This document shows, piece after piece, positions 1,198 to 59,747 of a stretch of 64,000 nucleotides of DNA. Under the pieces are notes generated by a model. It was not told the DNA's origin. It saw only the letters and a program-made list of their open reading frames with translations, and did not search any database. The stretch comes from Rugalucina vietnamica. Taxonomy: Eukaryota; Mollusca; Bivalvia; Lucinida; Lucinidae. Position 1 is the stretch's first letter, and the number at the start of each line of letters is the position of its first letter. The stretch spans positions 16,628,226 to 16,692,225 of the forward strand of contig OZ024876.1 in NCBI GenBank assembly GCA_964017185.1, in the 5' to 3' direction. Made by a program: the position numbers and the translations under genes.

Positions 1198-1432
1198 GAG
1201 TCTGTGCATGAGAAAACCAACAATTTGGGTTCCGACCAGGTCTGACACAAACCAGCCTGAACAGTCACAGAAGCAGGCTAGAAGCTAGAAATTTCAGATA
1301 TAAGAAGAAGAAGGATTGTACTAGCTGTGTAGCGAAAACAAAGGCGCTGATCAGCTTCGCGGTTACTGCGAAGCTGATCTGCGCCTTTGTTTTCGCCCAA
1401 GCATTTTGTTGTTTTTTTTTATGCCGTGCCTC
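1198..1432 (-). repeat. MITE-A copy, TSD ATAT
   Basis: Full length; ATAT directly outside both ends. Strand '-' in MITE-A entries means the palindrome lies near the right end. Confidence 0.85.
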
Positions 1433-4376: not shown

Positions 4377-4612
4377 GAGCCGCATCATGAGAAAACCAAC
4401 AATTTGCATATATGCGAAAACAAAAGCGCTGATCAGCTTCACATTAACTGCGAAGCTGATCAGCGCCTTTGTTTTCGCTACACGGATGGTACTGTTCTTC
4501 TACTTTCTGAATCCAAAATTTCCAGCCTACAGTTGTCTTCTGTAGCTGTACAGGCCGGTTTGTGTCAGTCCTGTTTGGAAACCACATTGTTGGTTTTGCC
4601 ACAAGATGGCTC
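4377..4612 (+). repeat. MITE-A copy, TSD ATAT
   Basis: Ends GAGCCGCATCATGAGAAAAC and GGCTC, ATAT outside both. Confidence 0.88.
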
Positions 4613-12190: not shown

Positions 12191-12287
12191 GAGCCGTCTC
12201 ATGGGAAAACCAACAATGTCGTTTCCGAAGAGGTCCGACACAGACAGGCTGCATATGTAGATTGTTGGATTTCTCATGAGGCGGCTC
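12191..12287. repeat. 97-bp internally deleted MITE-A, TSD AATT
   Basis: Retains both ends only; AATT directly outside each end. A comparable derivative is at 43813-43874. Confidence 0.8.
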
Positions 12288-13579: not shown

Positions 13580-13789
13580 GAGCCACGCATGAGAAAGCCA
13601 ACAATTTGCATAGGCACAAACAAAGCGGCAGAGCTGATCCGCGCCTTTGTTTTCACTGCATGGATAGTACAGTCCTTCTTCTTCTTTAATCCGAAATTTC
13701 AGTGTTCTAGCCTGCTGTGACTGTAAAGGCCGGTTTGTGTCCGACCTGGTCGGAAACCCAAATTGTTGGGTTTTTTTATACACAGACTC
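13580..13789 (+). repeat. MITE-A copy, TSD AATT
   Basis: Second palindrome arm retained, first mostly lost; AATT outside both ends. Confidence 0.8.
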
Positions 13790-22495: not shown

Positions 22496-23542
22496 TCATT
22501 TTTTTGTAAACACAGAAATGAGCTGTGTCGTATTTTCCTTCATTGCTATACGGAATTGTCGACTCTGCAGTGCGTACATCCATGGATTGAAAAATGAGTT
22601 ATTCATTGGTATCAAGATCATAAGTTGAAAAAGAACTTTTGACAACTGGACCGATGTTTCGTAACTAGCTATGAAGTTGATACCAATAGGTGCACCGACA
22701 GACAGATTTATCCAGAGCAGAATTGCGCCAATAAGATAAATTCCCTGTTTTTGATTATCTCTCCCTTCTCCTCCGTAAACTAGTAAATGTTTGTTCCTGT
22801 TTTGTCTATTGCGGTGGGAGATGTCTCTCACGTTCAGCAGTCTTATTGCTCCAGCTCCAGCGCTGTTGATGTCTGTTTGGTCATGATACTTTTGCCTTCG
22901 TTTTAAGATTTTATGTAAATTGTAGAGCAGTACGCAGTAAAGCACATCAGTACATACCAATAGTAAACCAAACCCAGTACCCATATATACTCCATATTTT
23001 TGCAAATTATCACCAAATAGCTGCGGTATTGAGCATTCCTCTAGTTCGTATTTTTCTGTCCATCCCAGAATAAGTGGAATACAGCTGTATATTGTGCATA
23101 TTACAAGGCTTAGTGTAACCTGAGTCAATGTTGTCTTTGCCGTCCAACCGAATCTGAATCTTCCAGATTTTATCAGGAAAAGTAACCGATAAACGCAGAT
23201 TCCTAAAATATTGCACAAAAATGTCATTTCGTTGATTGTGATAAACAGCCATAGAATGGTGCAAGTATCAGCATTTATTAACGTTGAACGTAGGTAGGAT
23301 AGAAGAAGAATAAGTACTCCAGTAAATAAATCATGGCTAGTTAAACTTACGAGTTGCAGCCAGAATTCTTTCTTCGGGAATCTGGTTCTGTGGGTGAATA
23401 AGCATATGGCGACAATTAAATTTTCAGTTAGTATCAGAAATGCATTGATTCTTTCACACCACAGGAAGATAAGGGGATATTCAACATACTCGCCAGATGA
23501 ATTTGTTTCATTTGCCATTTTGGTTTCACAAAGATGCTCCAT
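22496..23542 (-). CDS. Intronless rhodopsin-like (class A) GPCR
   Basis: One uninterrupted frame of 348 residues with seven hydrophobic segments. An alternative start is Met9, followed by NETNSS with two N-glycosylation sequons. Landmarks: TM1 TENLIVAICLF (N1.50); TM2 LVSLTSHDLF (D2.50); a Cys before TM3 (DTCTILW) and one in loop 2 (EECSIP) for the usual disulfide; TM7 SFFNPWMYAL in place of NPxxY. DRY after TM3 is replaced by VYR, and the TM6 CWxP motif is absent (LLWINLSVGAP). The ligand cannot be guessed. It lies antisense inside a CTC1 intron, with MITE-B copies in inverted orientation on each side. Confidence 0.85.
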   Translation of the reverse strand: MEHLCETKMANETNSSGEYVEYPLIFLWCERINAFLILTENLIVAICLFTHRTRFPKKEFWLQLVSLTSHDLFTGVLILLLSYLRSTLINADTCTILWLFITINEMTFLCNILGICVYRLLFLIKSGRFRFGWTAKTTLTQVTLSLVICTIYSCIPLILGWTEKYELEECSIPQLFGDNLQKYGVYMGTGFGLLLVCTDVLYCVLLYNLHKILKRRQKYHDQTDINSAGAGAIRLLNVRDISHRNRQNRNKHLLVYGGEGRDNQKQGIYLIGAILLWINLSVGAPIGINFIASYETSVQLSKVLFQLMILIPMNNSFFNPWMYALQSRQFRIAMKENTTQLISVFTKK

Positions 23543-23587
23543 TTGCCATTGTTTTCAATATTTTCATTTATTCATCATTCCTCTATC

Positions 23588-24621: not shown

Positions 24622-24842
24622 GAGCCTGTGCATGAGAAAACCAACAATTTGGGTTCCGACCAGGTCTGACACAAACTGGCCTGTAGTCAGTCACAGAATA
24701 AAGACATAAGATAAGTAGAGGATGAATTGTACTATCCGTGTAGCGAAAACAAAGGCTCTGATCAGCTTCGCAGTTACTGCGAAGCTTATCTGTGTCTTTG
24801 TTTTTGCATAGGCAAAAATCCGGTTTGCTCATGGCGTGGCTC
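24622..24842 (-). repeat. MITE-A copy, TSD AAGT
   Basis: AAGT immediately outside both ends. Confidence 0.85.
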
Positions 24843-27145: not shown

Positions 27146-27378
27146 GAGCCGCCCCATGGGAAAACCAACAATCTGCATAGGCGAAAACAAAGACGCAGAT
27201 CAGTTTCGCGGTACCGCGAAGCTGATCAGCGCCTTTGTTTTCGCTACTTGGATAGTACAATTCCTCTTCTGCTTAAATCCAAAAGTTCAAGCTTCTAGCT
27301 CTTTTGTGTGACTGCACAGGCCGGTTTGTGTCAGACCTGTTCGAAAACCACATTGTTGGTTTTCCCACGAGGCGGCTC
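27146..27378 (+). repeat. MITE-A copy, TSD ATAT
   Basis: ATAT outside both ends; inserted in the mariner-like MITE. Confidence 0.88.
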
Positions 27379-30602: not shown

Positions 30603-30849
30603 GAGTCACCTCGTGGGAAAACCAACAATGTGGTTTCCGACCAGGTCCAACACAAACCGGCCTGTACAAGCACAGAAAAGAGCTAGAAAGTTGAACTTTT
30701 GGATTTAAGTAGAGGAGGAATTGTACTATCCGAGAAGTGAAAACAAAGGCGCTGATCAGCTTCGCGGAAAAGCTTCGCGGTTACCGCGAAGCTGATCTGC
30801 GCCTTTGTTTTCGCCTATGCAGATTGTTGATTTTCCCATGAGGCGGCTC
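30603..30849 (-). repeat. MITE-A copy, TSD AAAT
   Basis: AAAT outside both ends. Part of the palindrome (AGCTTCGCGG) is tandemly repeated. Confidence 0.86.
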
Positions 30850-35882: not shown

Positions 35883-36117
35883 GAGCCGCATCGTGAGAAA
35901 ACCGGATTTTTGCCTATGCGAAAACAAAGGCGCAGATCAGCTTCGCGGTAACCGCGAAGCTGATCAGCGCCTTTGTTTTCGCTACACGGATAGTACAATT
36001 CCTCTTCTTCTTATATCCGAAATTTCAAGCTTCTAGCTCTTTTCTGAGCTTGTACAGGCCGGTTTGTGTCGGACCTGGTCGAAAACCCCGAAGACCGGTT
36101 TTCTCGCGTCGCGGCTC
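35883..36117 (+). repeat. MITE-A copy, TSD ATTT
   Basis: Best-preserved palindrome: CAGCTTCGCGGT/ACCGCGAAGCTG; ATTT outside both ends. Confidence 0.88.
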
Positions 36118-42374: not shown

Positions 42375-42621
42375 GAGCGGTCACAAGTGAAAACCAACAA
42401 TTTGAGGGGTCCGACCAGGTCCTACACAAACAGGCCTGTACAGTCATAGAAGCAGGCTAGAAGCAGGCTAAAAGCTTGAAATTTCGGATTTAAAAAGAAG
42501 TGGGATTGTACTATCCTTGTAGCAAAAACAAAGGTGCTGATCAGCTGTGCAGTTACTGCACAGCTGATCTGCACCTTTATTTTCGCATAGGCAGATTGTT
42601 GTTTTTCTGATGTGGCTGCTC
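42375..42621 (-). repeat. MITE-A copy, TSD AGAT
   Basis: AGAT outside both ends; the non-AT middle base makes this duplication informative. Confidence 0.84.
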
Positions 42622-44373: not shown

Positions 44374-44574
44374 GAGCCGCGACGTGAGAAAACCAGTCTT
44401 TGTGGTCTCTGACCAGGTCCGACACAAACCGGCCTGTGCAGTCACTGAAGATGGCTAGAATCTTGAAATTTTGGATTTAGGTAGAAATTGTACTATCCAT
44501 GTAGCGAAAACGAACACGCTGATCAGCTGTGATTTCGCATAGGCAAAAATCTGTTTTTTTTTGTGACGCGGCTC
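44374..44574 (-). repeat. MITE-A copy after CTC1 exon o, TSD AGGT
   Basis: AGGT outside both ends; return arm deleted; inverted relative to the upstream copy. Confidence 0.82.
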
Positions 44575-44749: not shown

Positions 44750-44983
44750 GAGCCGCCTCGTTGGAAAACCAACAATGTGGTTTCCGAACAGGTCCGACAC
44801 AAATCGGCCTGTACAAGCACAGAAAACAGCTAGAAGCTTGAAATTTCAGATTTAAGTAGAAGAGGAATTGTACTATCCGAGTAGCGAAAACAAAGGCGCT
44901 GATCAGCTTCGCGGTTACCGCGAAGCTGATCTGCGTCTTTGTTTTCGCCTATGCAGATTGTTGGTTTTCCCATGAGGCGGCTC
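44750..44983 (-). repeat. MITE-A copy, TSD ATTT
   Basis: ATTT outside both ends; complete palindrome. Confidence 0.88.
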
Positions 44984-45259: not shown

Positions 45260-45493
45260 GAGCCGCCTCATGGGAAAACTAACAATCTGCATAGGCGAAA
45301 ACAAAGACGCAGATCAGCTTCGCAGTAACCGCGAAGCTGATCAGCGCCTTTGTTTTCGCCACTTGGGTAGTATAATTCCTCTTCTACTTAAATCCGAAAT
45401 TTCAAGCTTCTAGCTCTTTTCTGTGCTTGTACAGGCCGGTTTGTGTGGAACCTGTTCGGAAACCACATTGTTGGTTTTCCCACGAGGCGGCTC
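45260..45493 (+). repeat. MITE-A copy, TSD AAAT
   Basis: AAAT outside both ends; last intron of CTC1. Confidence 0.88.
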
Positions 45494-48377: not shown

Positions 48378-49377
48378 AGTTTCACAAGAATCAGTATCTG
48401 GTAAAAGCACCCCTGTTGTTGATCACCGCTACACATCGACGTCATATGGAGGCTATAAGTCTGTTAATTGACGCTTGTGGTATACACTGCCACTCTTCCG
48501 TTAGGGCGGCCCGCAGCTGATCTAACGTCGCTGACTGCTGACGACGTTTACGTACCCTCCTATCCAATTGATCTCATAAATGCTCTATCGGCGATAGATC
48601 TGGTGATAGAGCTGGCCATGGTAGCACATAGATTGTTATTCCATCTTAGATAGTCCATATTGTCCCGTGCAACATGTGGACGGGCGTTGTCCTGCTGAAA
48701 TGTACCGCCATTTCTCCTGATAAATGGAACAACATGAGGGGTCAAAATGTCGGTATTTCTGAGCATTTAAAGTTCCGTTCATAAACACTAGATCTGTTCT
48801 CCCATGTGCTGTGATTCCACCCCAAACCATCACACTGCCACCACCATAACGATCGTGACGCAGTACACATTTTTTACGGAATCTCTCGCCAGGTCTACGT
48901 AACATCCTTGCTCGGCCGTCCACACGACGTAACAGAAATCTGGACTCATCACTGAATAGGACTCGTCCCCACTGACGAATTGTCCATCTTAAGAACCTGC
49001 GAGCCCATTGCAAATGTTGACGTAACGTTGTATGAAAAGAGGACCACGGTATGGTCTCCGTGGACGTGAACCGATTGCAGCAAGCCGGCGTAAAACTGTC
49101 TGGGAACTAATCCTATGTCGAAACGGCAAGTCTGCAGCAATTTCCACAGCGTTTGCGAACCTAGTAACCGGATGAAGCGATCCTGAACATGTGACATCAC
49201 GCGTGGCCTACCAGATCTGGGTCGGTCATCTGTGGTCTGAGTGTTTCTAACACGGCTCACAAGACGATTTATTGTGGTTCTGTGCATACCAAAGCGTCGG
49301 GCTACCTCGCCTTGGGAAACTCCAGCATCAAGCATACCAATCGCTCGCTCCCAATTGACTTTGTCGAGACATGGCAT
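48378..49377 (-). pseudogene. Dead Tc1-like (DDE) transposase
   Basis: On the minus strand, in order: a helix-turn-helix DNA-binding region (MPCLDKVNWERAIGML; GEVARRFGMHRTTINRLVSR; RPRSGRPR), the first catalytic Asp in LFSDESRF, a VMVWGG motif, the second in QQDNARPHVA, and a Glu in LSPIEHL. The spacing fits a Tc1/mariner DDE transposase. At least two frame breaks separate these blocks and a stop follows SPIEHL, so it is inactive. It is the core of the element at 46868-52092. Confidence 0.88.
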
Positions 49378-49604
49378 AACAGCAATATTCGGGAACTAAA
49401 GTGTTGCGTGTTTTTCTAAACAGTGATAATGAGTAGATTGCATGCATGTTGCAAAAATCGAATTTTGCTTTTATCATGCCAATAAAATCACAAAAATCAT
49501 GTTTTTAGACAAACAAAGTTATCATGTGTAAGTACAGGCAAAATTGAATCGAACAACCTCAGTTGACCTTGTGTGAAAGGGGGAAATATAGGGCAATAAG
49601 GAAA

Positions 49605-52439: not shown

Positions 52440-52673
52440 GAGCCGCCTCGTGGGAAAACCAGCAATGTGGTTTCCGACCAGGTCTGACATAAACCAAGCT
52501 GTACAAACACAGAAAGGAGATAAAAGCTTGAAATTTCGGATTTAAGTAGAAGAGGAATTGTACTATCCGAGTAGCGAAAACAAAGGCGCTGATCAGCTTC
52601 GCGGTCACCACGAAGCTGATCTGCGTCTTTGTTTTCACCTATGCAGATGGTTGGTTTTCCCATGGGGCGGCTC
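52440..52673 (-). repeat. MITE-A copy
   Basis: Complete; flanks AAAT and TTTT differ. Confidence 0.82.
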
Positions 52674-53356: not shown

Positions 53357-54862
53357 TTAGCTCACCTGAGCCGTCAGGCTCACAAGGTGAGCTTATAGTA
53401 TACCCATGCTCCGTCGTCCGTCCGTCCGTCCGTCGTCCACCATTTTCAAAGATCTTCTTCTCTGAAACAGCTTGGCCAATCAAAGCCAAATTTTACATGA
53501 AGCATCTATGGGAAGGGGGAACCAATGTGTATATAAATAATCCAGGTCACATGACCAAGATGGCCGCCATGCCCATATATGGTAAAAACCCTTCAAAAAT
53601 CTTCTTCTCCGGAACCACTGGACCGATTTCAACCAAACTTGGCATGAAGCATCGATGACTCAAGTACTACAATGTGTATATAAATCATGACCTTGCGGTG
53701 ACCCTGACCTATTTTACGGCAAGGTCAACATAGGTCGCCTTTGCATTTGAATGGGAAAAATTGTTAAATTGTCATTTAAAGGAAAAATCTTGCAGAAAAT
53801 GAGCAGTAGGACTGAATATTAATGATTCTGAAAAAAATTGGGCACCAGGGGCTCATCCGCCCCCACCCCGAGGCAATATACATGTGTATTATCATAATAT
53901 TCAAACATCTTCTCCTCTGAAACCGCTTGGCCAATCAAAGCCAAATTTTACATGAAGCATCTATGGGAAGGGGGAACCAATGTGTATATAAATAATCCAG
54001 GTCACATGACCAAGATGGCAGCCATGCCCATATATGGTAAAAACCCTTCAAACCCTCCGGAACTGGTGGACCGATTTCAAAGAAACATGGCTTGAAGCAT
54101 CGATGGCTAAAGTACTACAATGTGTATATAAATCATGACCCTGTGGTGACCTTGACCTATTTTACGACAAGGTCAACATAGGTCGCCTATGCAAGTGAAT
54201 GGGGAAAACTTTTAAAAAGTCATTTGAGGTGAAAATCTTGCAGCAAATAGTTAGCAGGACTGAATATTAATGATTCTGAAAAAAAGTTGGACCCAAGGAC
54301 TTATATGGCCCCACCCCGAGGCAATATACATGTAAATTGCAATAATATTCAAACATCTTCACCTCTGAAACCGCTTGGCCAATTAAAGCCAAATTTTATG
54401 TGAAGCATCCATAGGATGGGGGAATTAATGTGTATATAAATAATTTAGGTCACATGACCAAGATGGCCGCCATGCCCATATATGGTAAAAACCCTTCAAA
54501 AATCTTCTCTGAAACCAATAGACTGATTTCAAGGAAACTTCGTGTGAAGCATCAATGGCTAAAGTACTCCAATGTATATATATAAATCATGACCCTGTGA
54601 TGACCTTGACCAAGTTTATGGCAAGGTCAGCATGGGTTGCCTATGCATTTGAATGGGGAAAACTTTTAAAAATGTCATTTGAAGAGAAAAGCCAGCAGGA
54701 TATTGGCAAATGGACGAATATTGATTATTTTGAAAAAAGAAAATGGCCCAAGGGCGTCATCTGCCCCTGCACTGGGGTTAAATACCATAATAGTCAAACA
54801 TGTTTATTGGTATATGCAGCAGATCTCAGGTGAGCGTTTACAGGACCATTGGTCCTCTGGTT
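53357..54862 (+). mobile_element. HINE-1 copy, complete, + orientation
   Basis: 5' TTAGCTCACCTGAGCCGTCA, three core units, 3' CTCAGGTGAGCGTTTACAGG, hairpin, TCTGGTT. The 5' part contains CGTCCGTCCGTCC microsatellite. Confidence 0.85.
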
Positions 54863-55290
54863 TTTAATTTTGAGAGGAAACTGATTCAAGCAACACTATC
54901 TGTATTGAAACAATATCAGCCAACTACATCTGATGACTACCAACCACTACTGTACTATAGGTAAAATACTTTTGACCTTGCCGCTTGAACTCACGTGACT
55001 GAATCAAGCGCATATATTGTTATTAGGTAGAGCAATCATCGTAATTCAGATATGTGTGTGATAGTCATAAACCGTTAGTGTAGTGGGGCAATATGCAGTC
55101 AAAAAACACGTGAAAATTGACATTACATATTTCTCATCATGAAATATTCACATGAATATGTATAGCGTGGTATCAAGTGGCACAGTCAAAGTTATTTACC
55201 TATACTGGTACTTGGGAACTCATTTCATGAGGCTATACAATATCAACTTAACAATAAAATTACTACTATAGCTTGAATTTGACCTCTGGC
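54863..55290. other. Intergenic, nothing recognised
   Basis: A short open stretch at 54877-54960 that ends with a GT looks exon-like but connects to no gene (see rejected). The remainder is AT-rich. Confidence 0.4.
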
Positions 55291-55293
55291 ATG

Positions 55294-55557
55294 TCCATGA
55301 AATAAATACCCCCTTATACCCCACTTTTATATAGTAAAGCTGGGATATGCAGGAGTATACCTCCAAAACATAGATTGTGGGTACTCGTTAGAACCGCCTC
55401 GCCGGGGCAGTTCTAACATCTCGCCGAGGCGGTTCTAACGTGTATCCACAATCTATGTATCGAGCAAAAATCAGAAAAATATCAATAAATAATTTTCATT
55501 TTTTTACAACTTTAAAAATCTCTGTATATTGCATGGGCAAGTTTTCTTAATGAGTCA
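55294..55557 (+). repeat. MITE-B copy with duplicated centre
   Basis: GCAGTTCTAACATCTCGCCG and GGCGGTTCTAACG repeat the inner arm. Confidence 0.78.
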
Positions 55558-55560
55558 GCA

Positions 55561-55691
55561 GAGTCCATGAAGTAGCATGTCACACGTAAATGAGGACAAA
55601 ATGTCGGTTGCAAGTTTTCTGTTAGGCTTCGGTTGCACATGCAGTGACTGCTATTAACTGAATACCCTTTCACGTGCTACTTCATGGACTC
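55561..55691. repeat. 131-bp MITE
   Basis: Inverted ends GAGTCCATGAAGTAGCATGT and the complement of GAGTCCATGAAGTAGCACGT. Confidence 0.65.
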
Positions 55692-55719
55692 GCCTAGAGG
55701 TCAAGGTCGAGCTATATAG

Positions 55720-56146
55720 GAGCCATGTCAACTAAAAACATTGCATTTTGCAAATCAAAGACACAGATTAGATAAAAGGTTAAGGCACAGGATAAATACC
55801 TTTGTTTTTGATACAAAGCCAGTACAATTTTTCTGTCTAAATCTGAAATTTTGAGCACTTAGCAAACTGTATTTGTAACACCTCTTTGTGTAAGGTCATA
55901 TAGTAGTTTTTCTAGTGACATGGCTCATACCTACTATTGCACATTATTTGAGCCCCATCATGAGAAAACCAACAATGTGGTTTCTGAATAGGTCCGACAT
56001 AAACTGAGCTGTACAAGCACAAGATGGCTAGAGGCTGGAAATTTTAGATTTATAAACAATAGGAATTGCACTTTCCATGTAGCAAAACAAAGGCGCTGAT
56101 CAGCTTTGCAGTTTGAAAATGTTAGTTTTCTCATGACACAGCTCAT
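55720..56146. repeat. Two decayed MITE-A copies
   Basis: 55720-55925 is highly diverged; 55950-56146 (-) lacks the return arm. Confidence 0.6.
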
Positions 56147-56172
56147 TTCATTTTACAACACAAATTTCAATT

Positions 56173-56406
56173 GAGCCTGTGCATGAGAAAACCAGCAATT
56201 TGCATAGGCGAAAACAAAGCCGCAGATCAGCTTCGCGGTGACCGCGAAGCTGATCAGCGCCTTTGTTTTCGCTACACGGATAGTACAATCCCTCTTCTAC
56301 TTAAATGCAAAATTTCAAGCCTCTAACCATCTTCTGTGACTGTACAGGTCAGTTTGTGTCAGACCTGGTCGAAACCCAAATTGTTGGTTTTCTCATGCAC
56401 AGGCTC
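56173..56406 (+). repeat. MITE-A copy, TSD AATT
   Basis: AATT outside both ends; complete palindrome. Confidence 0.88.
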
Positions 56407-56502
56407 AATTGTTCTCATTATGGAGAGCATTACACACTCCAGTGAGAAATCCCGGGTTCAAGCTCAACTGTAACAAAGTTGCTTGAACTATTTTCATACT
56501 TG

Positions 56503-56760
56503 CGGCCCCCATGGCCAAGCGGTTAAGAGCGCTGTTTCTTAATCACTCGATCATTTCACCGCTGTGTCTGGTGTGGGTTCGAGCCCCCGCACTGGCCACA
56601 TGTGAGACAAGCCAAGTTCTGCTTGCAGGTGTGTCAGGTGGTTTTTCTCGGGGTTCTCCCGTTTTCGCCCACCTACAGATTGGTCCGTCTCATATGAGCT
56701 GAAATAATCTTGAAAGGGATGTAAAACTCAATAATAATAATAATATTTTCATACTCAACT
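56503..56760 (+). repeat. tRNA-derived SINE with ATA tail
   Basis: CATGGCCAAGCGGTTAAGAG (box A), GTGTGGGTTCGAGCCCC (box B), body GGTTTTTCTCGGGGTTCTCC, then GATGTAAAACTC and an AATAATAAT tail. A tRNA-Leu-like head is likely. Confidence 0.78.
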
Positions 56761-56915
56761 CAGCTGAGCATGAAATTTCAAATCCTCATAAATACTGAAA
56801 TCACCCAAATTATTGAAATCGAAGGAGCCTGTAATTTATCCCGCTCATAAAATGTTAAAATGTCTTTGTTTCTGTCACTGTAAACAGAAAGCCTGAGTCC
56901 AGCTGAACCTCTGTT
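56745..56915. repeat. Repeat family D, copy 2
   Basis: Same blocks as 14415-14610; directly follows the SINE tail, downstream of Furry. Confidence 0.6.
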
Positions 56916-56929
56916 GCAGTCAGGATTGA

Positions 56930-57100
56930 AGCTAGTAGTTTTTGATTGGTCTACAACATGTTAAGTAGTTTTTGATTGGTCTACTTGTAAAGTGGTTTTT
57001 GATTGGTCTACAATGTACTGGAGTCTGGTTGATCCTCAATGTCTATCTGTGTTGGCTGTGGAGAGGCTGGTGCCCAGTTTAGTAGTTTTTGATTGGTCTC
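56930..57100 (-). repeat. Tandem copies of a Furry exon segment
   Basis: AGTAGTTTTTGATTGGTCT or AGTGGTTTTTGATTGGTCT recurs at about 56933, 56964 and 56991 in the 3' UTR and at 57081 within the coding exon. Confidence 0.8.
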
Positions 57101-57159
57101 TACAAGTTGATTCTTTATCAGACTGATATCAAAGTCCAGCTTTGTCAGTACAAACAATC
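57008..57159 (-). CDS. FRY: Furry terminal exon with stop codon
   Basis: The acceptor is TTTTCTTTCAG. After completing a Gly codon it reads LFVLTKLDFDISLIKNQLVE, then TNQKLLNWAPASPQPTQID, and ends DSSTL with stop TAG (57010-57008 on this strand). FRY also ends with a hydrophobic strand, a helix and a loose tail. The part encoding ETNQKLL is repeated three times in the 3' UTR. No AATAAA was found within about 500 nt downstream. Confidence 0.75.
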
Positions 57160-57195
57160 CTGAAAGAAAAAGGAATGAACGTCAATACATTATAT

Positions 57196-57417
57196 GAGCC
57201 GTGACGCGAGAAAACTGGTCTTCAGATCTGACATAAAATGGCCTGTGCAGTCACAGAATATAGCTAGAGGCTGGAAATTTCCGATTTGGGAAAAAGGAAT
57301 TGTACTATAGCTGTAGCGAAAACAAAGGCACTGATCAGCTTCGCAGTTACTGCAAAGCTGATCTGCGCCTTTTTTTTTTTGCGTAGGCAAAAATCTGGTT
57401 TTCTCATGACATGGCTC
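57196..57417 (-). repeat. MITE-A copy next to Furry last exon
   Basis: Ends 37 nt upstream (in gene sense) of the terminal exon acceptor. Confidence 0.8.
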
Positions 57418-57616
57418 ATTTGGTTCCATGTGTTTTGAGTTCAGCAACAACCCAGGCCACAGGTAGACACAATAAGCATTGCACCCAATTACTTAAAATT
57501 ACTTCAGATTTTTGACACAATAAATCATCATCTGACTTTAAGTACAGCGCTATACTCACCAATTCATCTATAAATGGCCTAATGTTGTAACTAAGGTTCT
57601 TCATAATATTCTCTCA

Positions 57617-59145
57617 ACCAGAGGACCAATGGTCCTGTAAACGCTCACCTGAGATCAGCTGCATATACCAATAAACATGTTTGAATATTATGGTATTTAA
57701 CTCCAGTGCAGGGGCAGATAAGCCCTTGGGCCATTTTCTTTTTTCAGAATCTTCAATATTCTGTCCATTTGCCAATTTCCTGTAGGCTTTTGCCTTCAAA
57801 TGGCATTTTAACAGTTTTCCCAATTCAGATGCACAGGCAACCCATGTTGAACTTGCCATAAACTTGGTCAAGGTCATCACAGGGTCATGATTTATATATA
57901 CATTGGAGTACTTTAGCCATCGATGCCTCACGTCAAGTTTCCTTGAAATCAGTCTATTGGTTTCAGAGAAGATGATTTTTGATGGGTTTTTACCATATAT
58001 GGGCATGGCGGCCATCTTGGTCATGTGACCTAGATTATTTATATACACATTGATTCCCCCATTCTATAGATGCTTCACTTAAAATTTGGCTTTGTTTGGC
58101 CAAGCGGTTTCAGAGGAGAAGACGTTTGAATATTATGGAAATATACATGTATATTGCCCCGGGGTGGGGGCACATGAGCCCCTGGGGTCCAATTTTTTTC
58201 AGAATCATTAATATCCAGTCCTACTGCCCATTTCCTGCAAGACTTTCACTTTAAATGACATTTTAAAAGTTTTCCCCATTCAAATGCATTGGTGACCTAT
58301 GTTGACCTTCCCGTAAAATAGGTCAAGGTCATCACAGGGTCATGACTTATATACACATTGTAGTGCTTGAGCCATCAATGCTTCGTGCCAAGTTTCGTTG
58401 AAATCGGTCAACCGGTTCTGGAGAAGAAGATTTTTGAACGGTTTTTACCATATATGGGCATGGCGGCCATCTTGGTCATGTGACCTGGATTTTTTATATA
58501 CATATTTGTTACCCCTTCCTATTGATGCTTCACATAAAATTTCGCTTTGATTGGCCAAGCGGTTTCAGAGGAGATGTTTGAATATTATGGAGATATACAT
58601 GTATATTGCCCCGGGGTGGGGGCGGATGAGCCCCTGGTGCCCAATTTTTTTCAGAATCATTAATATTCAGTCCTACTGCTCATTTTCTGCAAGATTTTTC
58701 CTTTAAATGACAATTTAACAATTTTTCCCATTCAAATGCATTCGCGACCTATGTTGACCTTGCCGTAAAATAGGTCAAGGTCATCATAAGGTCATGATTT
58801 ATATACACATTGTAGTGCTTGAGCCATTAATGCTTCATGCCAAGTTTGGTTGAAATCGGTCCAGTGGTTCCGGAGAAGAAGATTTTTGAAGGGTTTTTAC
58901 CATATATGGGCATGGCGGCCATCTTGGTCATGTGACCTGGATTATTTATATACACATTGGTTCCCCCTTCCCATAGATGCTTCATGTAAAATTTGGCTTT
59001 GATTGGCCAAGCGGTTTTAGAGTAGAAGATCTTTGAAAATGGTGGACGACGGACGGACGACGGACGGACGGACGACGGACGGACGACGGAGCATGGGTAT
59101 ACTATAAGCTCACCTTGTGAGCCTGACGGCTCAGGTGAGCTAAAA
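57617..59145 (-). mobile_element. HINE-1 copy, complete, minus orientation, Furry last intron
   Basis: 3' end CCAGAGGACCAATGGTCCTG at 57617; 5' end CTCAGGTGAGCTAA at 59143. GACGGACG microsatellite near 59048-59090. Confidence 0.85.
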
Positions 59146-59277: not shown

Positions 59278-59747
59278 GAGCAGTGACGCGAGAAATCGGT
59301 CTTCAGGATTTCCGACCAGGTCTGACAGAAATCAACCTGTACAATCACAGAAGCAGGCTAGAAGCTTGAAATTTTGAATTTAAGAAGAAGAGAAATGAGC
59401 CGCCCCATGGGAAAACCAACAATCTGCATAGGCGAAAACAAAGACACATCAGATTCACGGTAACCGCGAAGCTGATCAGCGTCTTTATTTTCGCTACTCG
59501 GTTAGTACAATTCCTCTTCTACTTAAATCCGAAATTTCAGGCTTCTAGCTCTTTTCTGTGCTTGTACAGGTCGGTTTGTGTCGAACCTGTTCGAAAACCA
59601 CATTGTTGGTTTTCCCACGGGGCGGCTCAAATGTACTATCTGTGTGGCAAAATCAAAGGCACTGATGAGCTTCACAGTTACTGTGAAGCTGATCTGCGCC
59701 TTTGTTTTCACATAGGCAAATATCCGGTTTTCTCACAACTGCTGCTC
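59278..59747 (-). repeat. MITE-A host split by another MITE-A
   Basis: Left half 59278-59396, right half from 59633; together they form one full copy. Confidence 0.85.
59397..59628 (+). repeat. MITE-A inserted in a MITE-A, TSD AAAT
   Basis: AAAT on both sides; the host sequence continues without loss. Confidence 0.9.

Follow-up and report, generated by a model that had tools for sequence, protein, structure and literature searches.

The repeat that interrupts a second copy of itself at positions 59278-59747 of the window, the whole 64,000-nucleotide stretch of Rugalucina vietnamica DNA analysed here, is almost certainly a MITE, very abundant and non-autonomous, and represents a new MITE family of an already known kind. 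It ends in GAGCC and GGCTC, duplicates 4 bp of its target with a strong preference for ANNT, folds into a hairpin and is present in very high copy number. Taken as a whole, it is probably a MITE moved by cut-and-paste in trans by a transposase of the Sola2 group, with a 4-bp A-W-W-T-like target duplication. With ends and target rule fixed for so abundant a repeat, it becomes possible to call and date its copies and to predict their insertion-free flanks, and the combination of GAGCC ends with a 4-bp AWWT duplication offers a sharp criterion for finding the mobilising enzyme.

The nested pair and the structure of the element

An earlier note on this DNA had placed one copy of the family inside another with AAAT on both sides, and both the coordinates and the letters of the window bear this out. 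The first AAAT (59393-59396) is followed by the inserted copy, which runs from GAGCC to GGCTC on the plus strand (59397-59628), then by the second AAAT (59629-59632) and by GTACTATCTG. The insert is 232 bp long with 94% identity to the family consensus, and its 27-bp terminal inverted repeats lie at 59397-59423 (plus strand) and 59602-59628 (minus strand). The outer, host copy lies on the minus strand, its left part with tip GAGCAGTGACGCGAGAAA at 59278-59396, including the first AAAT, and its right part, ending in CAACTGCTGCTC, at 59633-59747. Once the insert and one AAAT are subtracted, the host returns to 234 bp exactly, which is the length of the consensus; its own flanks, AGTT and ACTT, differ by one mismatch. 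The accompanying claim of a paralogous empty site holds, with a qualification. Empty sites are indeed present among the paralogues, many sister copies carrying GAGGAATTGTACTATCC at the insertion point (30 of 71 spanning alignments listed). Relative to them the host lacks one base and has one or two substitutions, and the empty site for the nested insertion is thus a good match, though an imperfect one.

The consensus, derived from 18 near-full copies, has left and right terminal inverted repeats matching at 26 of the outer 27 positions and at 28 of the outer 30, and its left half contains an inner palindrome of 65 bp (consensus positions 36-100, 94%). As a single DNA strand, the inserted copy forms a much more stable fold than its shuffles (z = -9.15). 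The element is recognised as a MITE by a length that leaves no room for a transposase gene, by its high copy number, inverted ends and fold-back, and by its fixed 4-bp duplication.

The sequence next to the ends was tabulated for 111 tip ends chosen for GAGCC and at most three mismatches to the tip pattern. A occupies 85% of these at position -4 and T 89% at position -1, with A or T in 94-97% between them, and a weaker bias extends from -5 to -7, where G is scarce at -5 and -6 and C at -6 and -7. As GAGCC was itself a selection criterion, this table does not prove the first five letters of the tip, which are proved instead by the nested pair and by the 4-bp register described below. The GAGCC/GGCTC ends proposed earlier hold in both of these and in the genome-wide counts.

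Immediately before the nested MITEs, an inverted-repeat scan of the window showed repeats spaced about 450 bp apart in both orientations (53394-59106), with ACCAAGATGGCCGCCATGCC, or sequence nearly identical to it, at 53554, 54009 and 54457 and inverted near 58021, 58476 and 58928.

A 4-bp target duplication with a preference for ANNT

Copies were sampled from the window, from 20 stretches of 10 kb at round-number positions, from the seven best-match loci L002-L008, which bias the sample towards young copies, and from L029, L031 and L033; L001, L030 and L032 were omitted because they duplicate other loci. From 77 full-length copies called, 13 were dropped for more than one tip mismatch to GAGCC, leaving 64: the window supplied 26, the spread stretches 22, L002-L008 14, and L029 and L033 together two. 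Identical 4-bp flanks were found in 42 of the 64, compared with a mean of 8.7 and a maximum of 20 in 5000 shuffles of the right flank. Identical flanks of 2, 3 and 5 bp numbered 16, 2 and 0, and no copy had identical flanks of 6 or 8 bp. Position by position, the two flanks match at 0.92, 0.83, 0.81 and 0.88 in the 4-bp register and at no more than 0.58 in any other (2, 3 and 5 to 8 bp).

The 42 matched duplications were mainly ATTT (12), ATAT (10), AAAT (6), AATT (4), ATTG (2) and ATAA (2), with GTAT, AGAT, AAGT, TTTT, ATCT and AGGT seen once each. ANNT accounts for 36 and AWWT for 32 of them, and TTAA for none. It had been claimed that all matched duplications have A as their first and T as their last base. 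This is true of the window, where 16 of 26 copies are matched and all 16 are ANNT, but elsewhere the proportion is 20 of 26 (among 38 copies), the exceptions being ATTG and ATAA, twice each, GTAT and TTTT. With 36 of 42, ANNT is a strong preference, not an absolute rule. The broader claim of a 4-bp duplication preferring ANNT was upheld in every test, genome-wide counts included.

Besides the nested AAAT, 13 duplications in the window had been listed, and all 13 are present. ATAT flanks the copies at 1198-1432 (minus strand), 4377-4612 (plus) and 27146-27378 (plus), and AATT those at 13580-13789 (plus) and 56173-56406 (plus) as well as a short copy of 97 bp at 12191-12287. ATTT is found at 35883-36117 (plus) and at 44750-44983 (minus), the latter with 98% identity to the consensus, and AAAT at 30603-30849 (minus) and 45260-45493 (plus). 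The remaining three, all on the minus strand, are AAGT at 24622-24842, AGAT at 42375-42621 and AGGT at 44374-44574.

Flank pairs that differ were mismatched by one base in 10 cases, by two in 10 and by three in 2 (22 of 64). ANNT stands on both sides in 8 of the 22, on one side in 12 and on neither in 2. Copies of this kind had been thought to look recombined, which the comparison does not establish. Their median identity to the consensus is 80.0% versus 86.6% for copies with matched flanks; they are thus older, and mutation explains many of them, ten of the pairs being only one base apart. Recombination is possible for some, and the best candidate for recombination or rearrangement is a young copy (93%) at 52440-52673 on the minus strand, with the unlike flanks AAAT and TTTT.

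Genome-wide counts and abundance

Counting ANNT beside the tips throughout the genome (1.09 Gb, 47 contigs), along the lines of the check that had been suggested, gave a clear excess. Exact matches to the tip pattern GAGCCNNNNCRTGRGAAAACC number 109,746, and its reversed control has none. ANNT directly precedes 94,274 of these tips (85.9%) against a background of about 9.8% of 4-mers in the sampled sequence, and in the first 100 ANNT-preceded tips listed, 97 are AWWT. Pairing was assessed with ATAT in elements 218-242 bp long that carry GAGCCGCC at each end. Among 6,197 ATAT-flanked ends, 4,646 (75%) have a partner end that is also ATAT, which amounts to 2,323 elements; the share of ATAT in the sampled flanks is 28 of 128 (22%). 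Of the window, 14.9% belongs to the family; in the 20 spread stretches (200 kb) the share is 3.1%, with copies in 11 stretches and none in 9, so that the window is rich in this MITE.

Search for an autonomous partner

The second check suggested, a search for an autonomous element with the same tips, identified MITE copies and fragments among the recurring interiors that were read. Three patterns combining the tips with a non-MITE interior gave 46, 409 and 332 matches. The listing is complete for the first and covers about 100 matches for each of the other two, and no autonomous element with GAGCC...GGCTC tips was found among the listed matches or in the loci read. The interior ATGGGCGGTA (two matches to the first pattern) belongs to a MITE fragment within a larger repeat (L029/L030), and AATTAAGGT (L033) to a MITE copy whose far tip has decayed. 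Another interior, AATGCAGTT, recurs at least six times among the matches listed for the second pattern, and most single interiors listed resemble, by eye, gapped MITE sequence. The interior CACTTCAGGT, seen nine times among the listed matches to the second pattern, is likewise a MITE fragment in a larger repeat (L031/L032). The repeat with a MITE fragment in L031, L032 and L037 is 99% identical over about 700 bp, and at least nine places have the same tip and interior; MITE fragments are thus spread further as passengers of larger repeats. The interior AATGATTTTC (9 of 46 matches to the first pattern) has a partner tip at MITE distance in all nine cases, and these places, being of full MITE length, are MITE copies. 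They form a nine-copy variant with this changed interior beside one tip (C4:6023143-6023368 and eight other places), either a small subfamily or copies that spread together.

Within the sampled sequence, tips that lie 260-12,000 bp from each other and have the same 4-bp flank did not reveal a clean long element, and in all 23 such pairs at least two other tips lie between. A de novo search for inverted repeats bordered by 4-bp duplications gave output too noisy for calling elements. One exact 27-base tip pattern had no match in viral and prokaryote contigs, and peptide readings of the same tip presumably occur in predicted proteins of several bivalves.

Candidate transposases were considered from the side of the protein. 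DUF7869 (PF25273), which we take to be transposase-like, has 144 matches genome-wide, several of them in multi-copy repeats and some in open frames of 580-690 aa. A 2.9-kb stretch is common to L034 and L035 at 99%, and its left edge is not GAGCC (the right edge lies beyond the sequence read); the repeat in L038 extends past the 5.5 kb compared, and that of L039-L041, whose left edge falls outside the stretch read, has a right edge other than GGCTC. No element with the MITE tips was found in the DUF7869 loci L034-L041. In L034, L035, L037 and L038 the close tip matches belong to MITE insertions or fragments, and L036 and L039-L041 have none, save look-alikes with five mismatches. DUF7869 looks like an uncharacterised transposase lineage, and no tie to the MITE or to Sola2 was found for it in these loci. 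An 882-aa open frame in L019 with weak similarity to DUF6589, below the family cut-off, is not accompanied by matching tips.

Proposed mode of movement and alternatives

If the MITE moves by cut-and-paste, a DDE transposase, probably of the Sola2 group, would be supplied in trans and bind the inverted repeats. The element would be cut out at GAGCC/GGCTC and joined to target DNA that has been opened at A-W-W-T-like sites with a 4-bp stagger, and repair of the gaps would leave the 4-bp duplication. The nested pair would then be a single event of this sort, in which a younger copy entered an older one at AAAT.

A less probable alternative assigns the same kind of MITE to a transposase from a different superfamily, or from one without a name, whose cuts at ANNT likewise have a 4-bp stagger. 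No partner was found among the matches listed, and several uncharacterised families of candidate transposases, DUF7869 for example, occur in multiple copies in the genome, both of which would fit such a mover; on the other hand the DUF7869 loci read gave no element bearing the MITE tips, and Sola2, as described in the available part of the source, already fits both the length and the letters of the duplication (PMC3627910). A more specific proposal, which we consider unlikely, is an unnamed non-Sola2 lineage, distinguished by GAGCC ends and an ANNT rule of its own, which has left intact tips worth more than 50,000 elements and whose driver is now extinct or very rare in the genome.

The flanks could also be read quite differently. 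If the ends were T-GAGCC...GGCTC-A and insertion took place between A and T, only the two middle bases would be duplicated, and most flanks, which fit A-NN-T, are predicted equally well; the TWA duplication of Chapaev3, between A and T, is comparable according to the accessible part of its description (PMC4079192). Atypical outer bases speak against this very improbable reading, as they are common to both flanks far more often than by chance. The same non-A first base occurs in both flanks of 3 copies, against 0.22 expected (P 0.0003, n=64), and the same non-T last base in both flanks of 4, against 0.34 expected (P 0.0001, n=64), which means that all four bases are duplicated. Least probable of all is a spread mainly by recombination or within larger repeats, where matching flanks would reflect common ancestry. 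Some tips do ride in larger repeats, and L029/L030 as well as L031/L032/L037 have flanks in common, but a flank inherited in this way would extend beyond 4 bp, and the absence of identical 5-, 6- or 8-bp flanks from all 64 copies argues against it.

Other features of the window and the loci read

Two overlapping open frames on the minus strand of the window (48636-49395) read like a decayed Tc1/mariner transposase, as we take them to be, and a 352-aa open frame at 22496-23554, also on the minus strand, gives the impression of a seven-helix receptor. L010 (2479-6195) contains a large inverted repeat of about 3.7 kb end to end, whose arms at many points agree in 16-20 of 20 bases and which is possibly a foldback element, and L009 (788-6841) an open frame of 2018 aa that consists of a short peptide repeated in tandem (KLRNKLSQEGHRKQKTPQQKAREKQTDIL...). 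At C6:60487638-60733294 (L042-L045) lies a cluster of intronless globin genes with single long open frames. The frames of three of the four loci read have an MGC-S-like start, and the fourth locus is without a long forward frame. Such a start is presumably that of N-terminally lipidated globins.

Comparison with known systems

The usual duplications of several superfamilies differ from the one described here: piggyBac, Kolobok and Sola3 duplicate TTAA, PIF-Harbinger TWA and hAT 8 bp. That of Tc1-mariner is TA, as given in the part of the source available (PMC10741241). None of these agrees with the flanks of the MITE, where only the 4-bp register matches and the letters are ANNT. Chapaev (CMC) elements, in the accessible part of their description, resemble it in a short duplication of 3-4 bp, AT-rich in Chapaev3, but differ in the TWA duplication of Chapaev3 and in invariable 5'-CAC and GTG-3' ends (PMC4079192), and the GAGCC...GGCTC ends of the MITE exclude this identity.

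The earlier note could name no superfamily; Sola2 can now be proposed as a candidate. The literature search on MITEs and 4-bp duplications did not find the ANNT rule itself described, and the closest published target rule found for the GAGCC/GGCTC MITE, in the portions of the sources available, is that of Sola2, which has AWWT duplications of 4 bp in Dictyostelium fasciculatum and ATAT, AAAT or ATTT in Polysphondylium pallidum (PMC3627910). The likeness lies in short terminal inverted repeats and in the AT-rich AWWT duplication, which accounts here for 32 of 42 and is a preference rather than a strict rule. The MITE differs in being without a transposase, and it is likened to Sola2 by the letters of the duplication, not by terminal sequences. 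Sola2 inverted repeats are short, 12-13 bp or 21 bp and imperfect (PMC3627910), and the ends of Sola elements are very variable (PMC10741241); for non-autonomous elements the Repbase rule asks that end positions 1-11 agree with at most one mismatch (PMC4455052), each as given in the accessible text. Sola2 is counted, likewise in the available part, among the MITE superfamilies of insects (PMC5199201), and a curated library of autonomous bivalve transposons includes 14 Sola2 elements (PMC10294476, available part). As an AT-rich 4-bp duplication is weak evidence of superfamily and the search yielded no autonomous partner, membership in Sola2 is something that we infer from the target letters.

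A further comparison is offered by 'consensus sequence 1', a repeat from the haemoglobin genes of Lucina pectinata. As described in the available part of that paper, it is 210 bp long and folds stably, its inverted ends of 30 bp are imperfect (27 of 30), it contains a self-complementary segment of 77 bp with 96% identity, and similar sequences occur in other molluscs (PMC4732748). Compared by architecture, not by letters, the MITE is alike, with 234 bp, 28 of 30 and a segment of 65 bp with 94%. The tip letters of the MITE are absent from the text of that paper, which prints its repeat sequence in a figure. The difference lies in the target: within the same available part, the authors found no target duplication (PMC4732748), whereas a 4-bp duplication is present here. 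The Lucina pectinata repeat is possibly an earlier sighting of the same element, in which case the ends and the ANNT preference described here may bear on that clam repeat as well.
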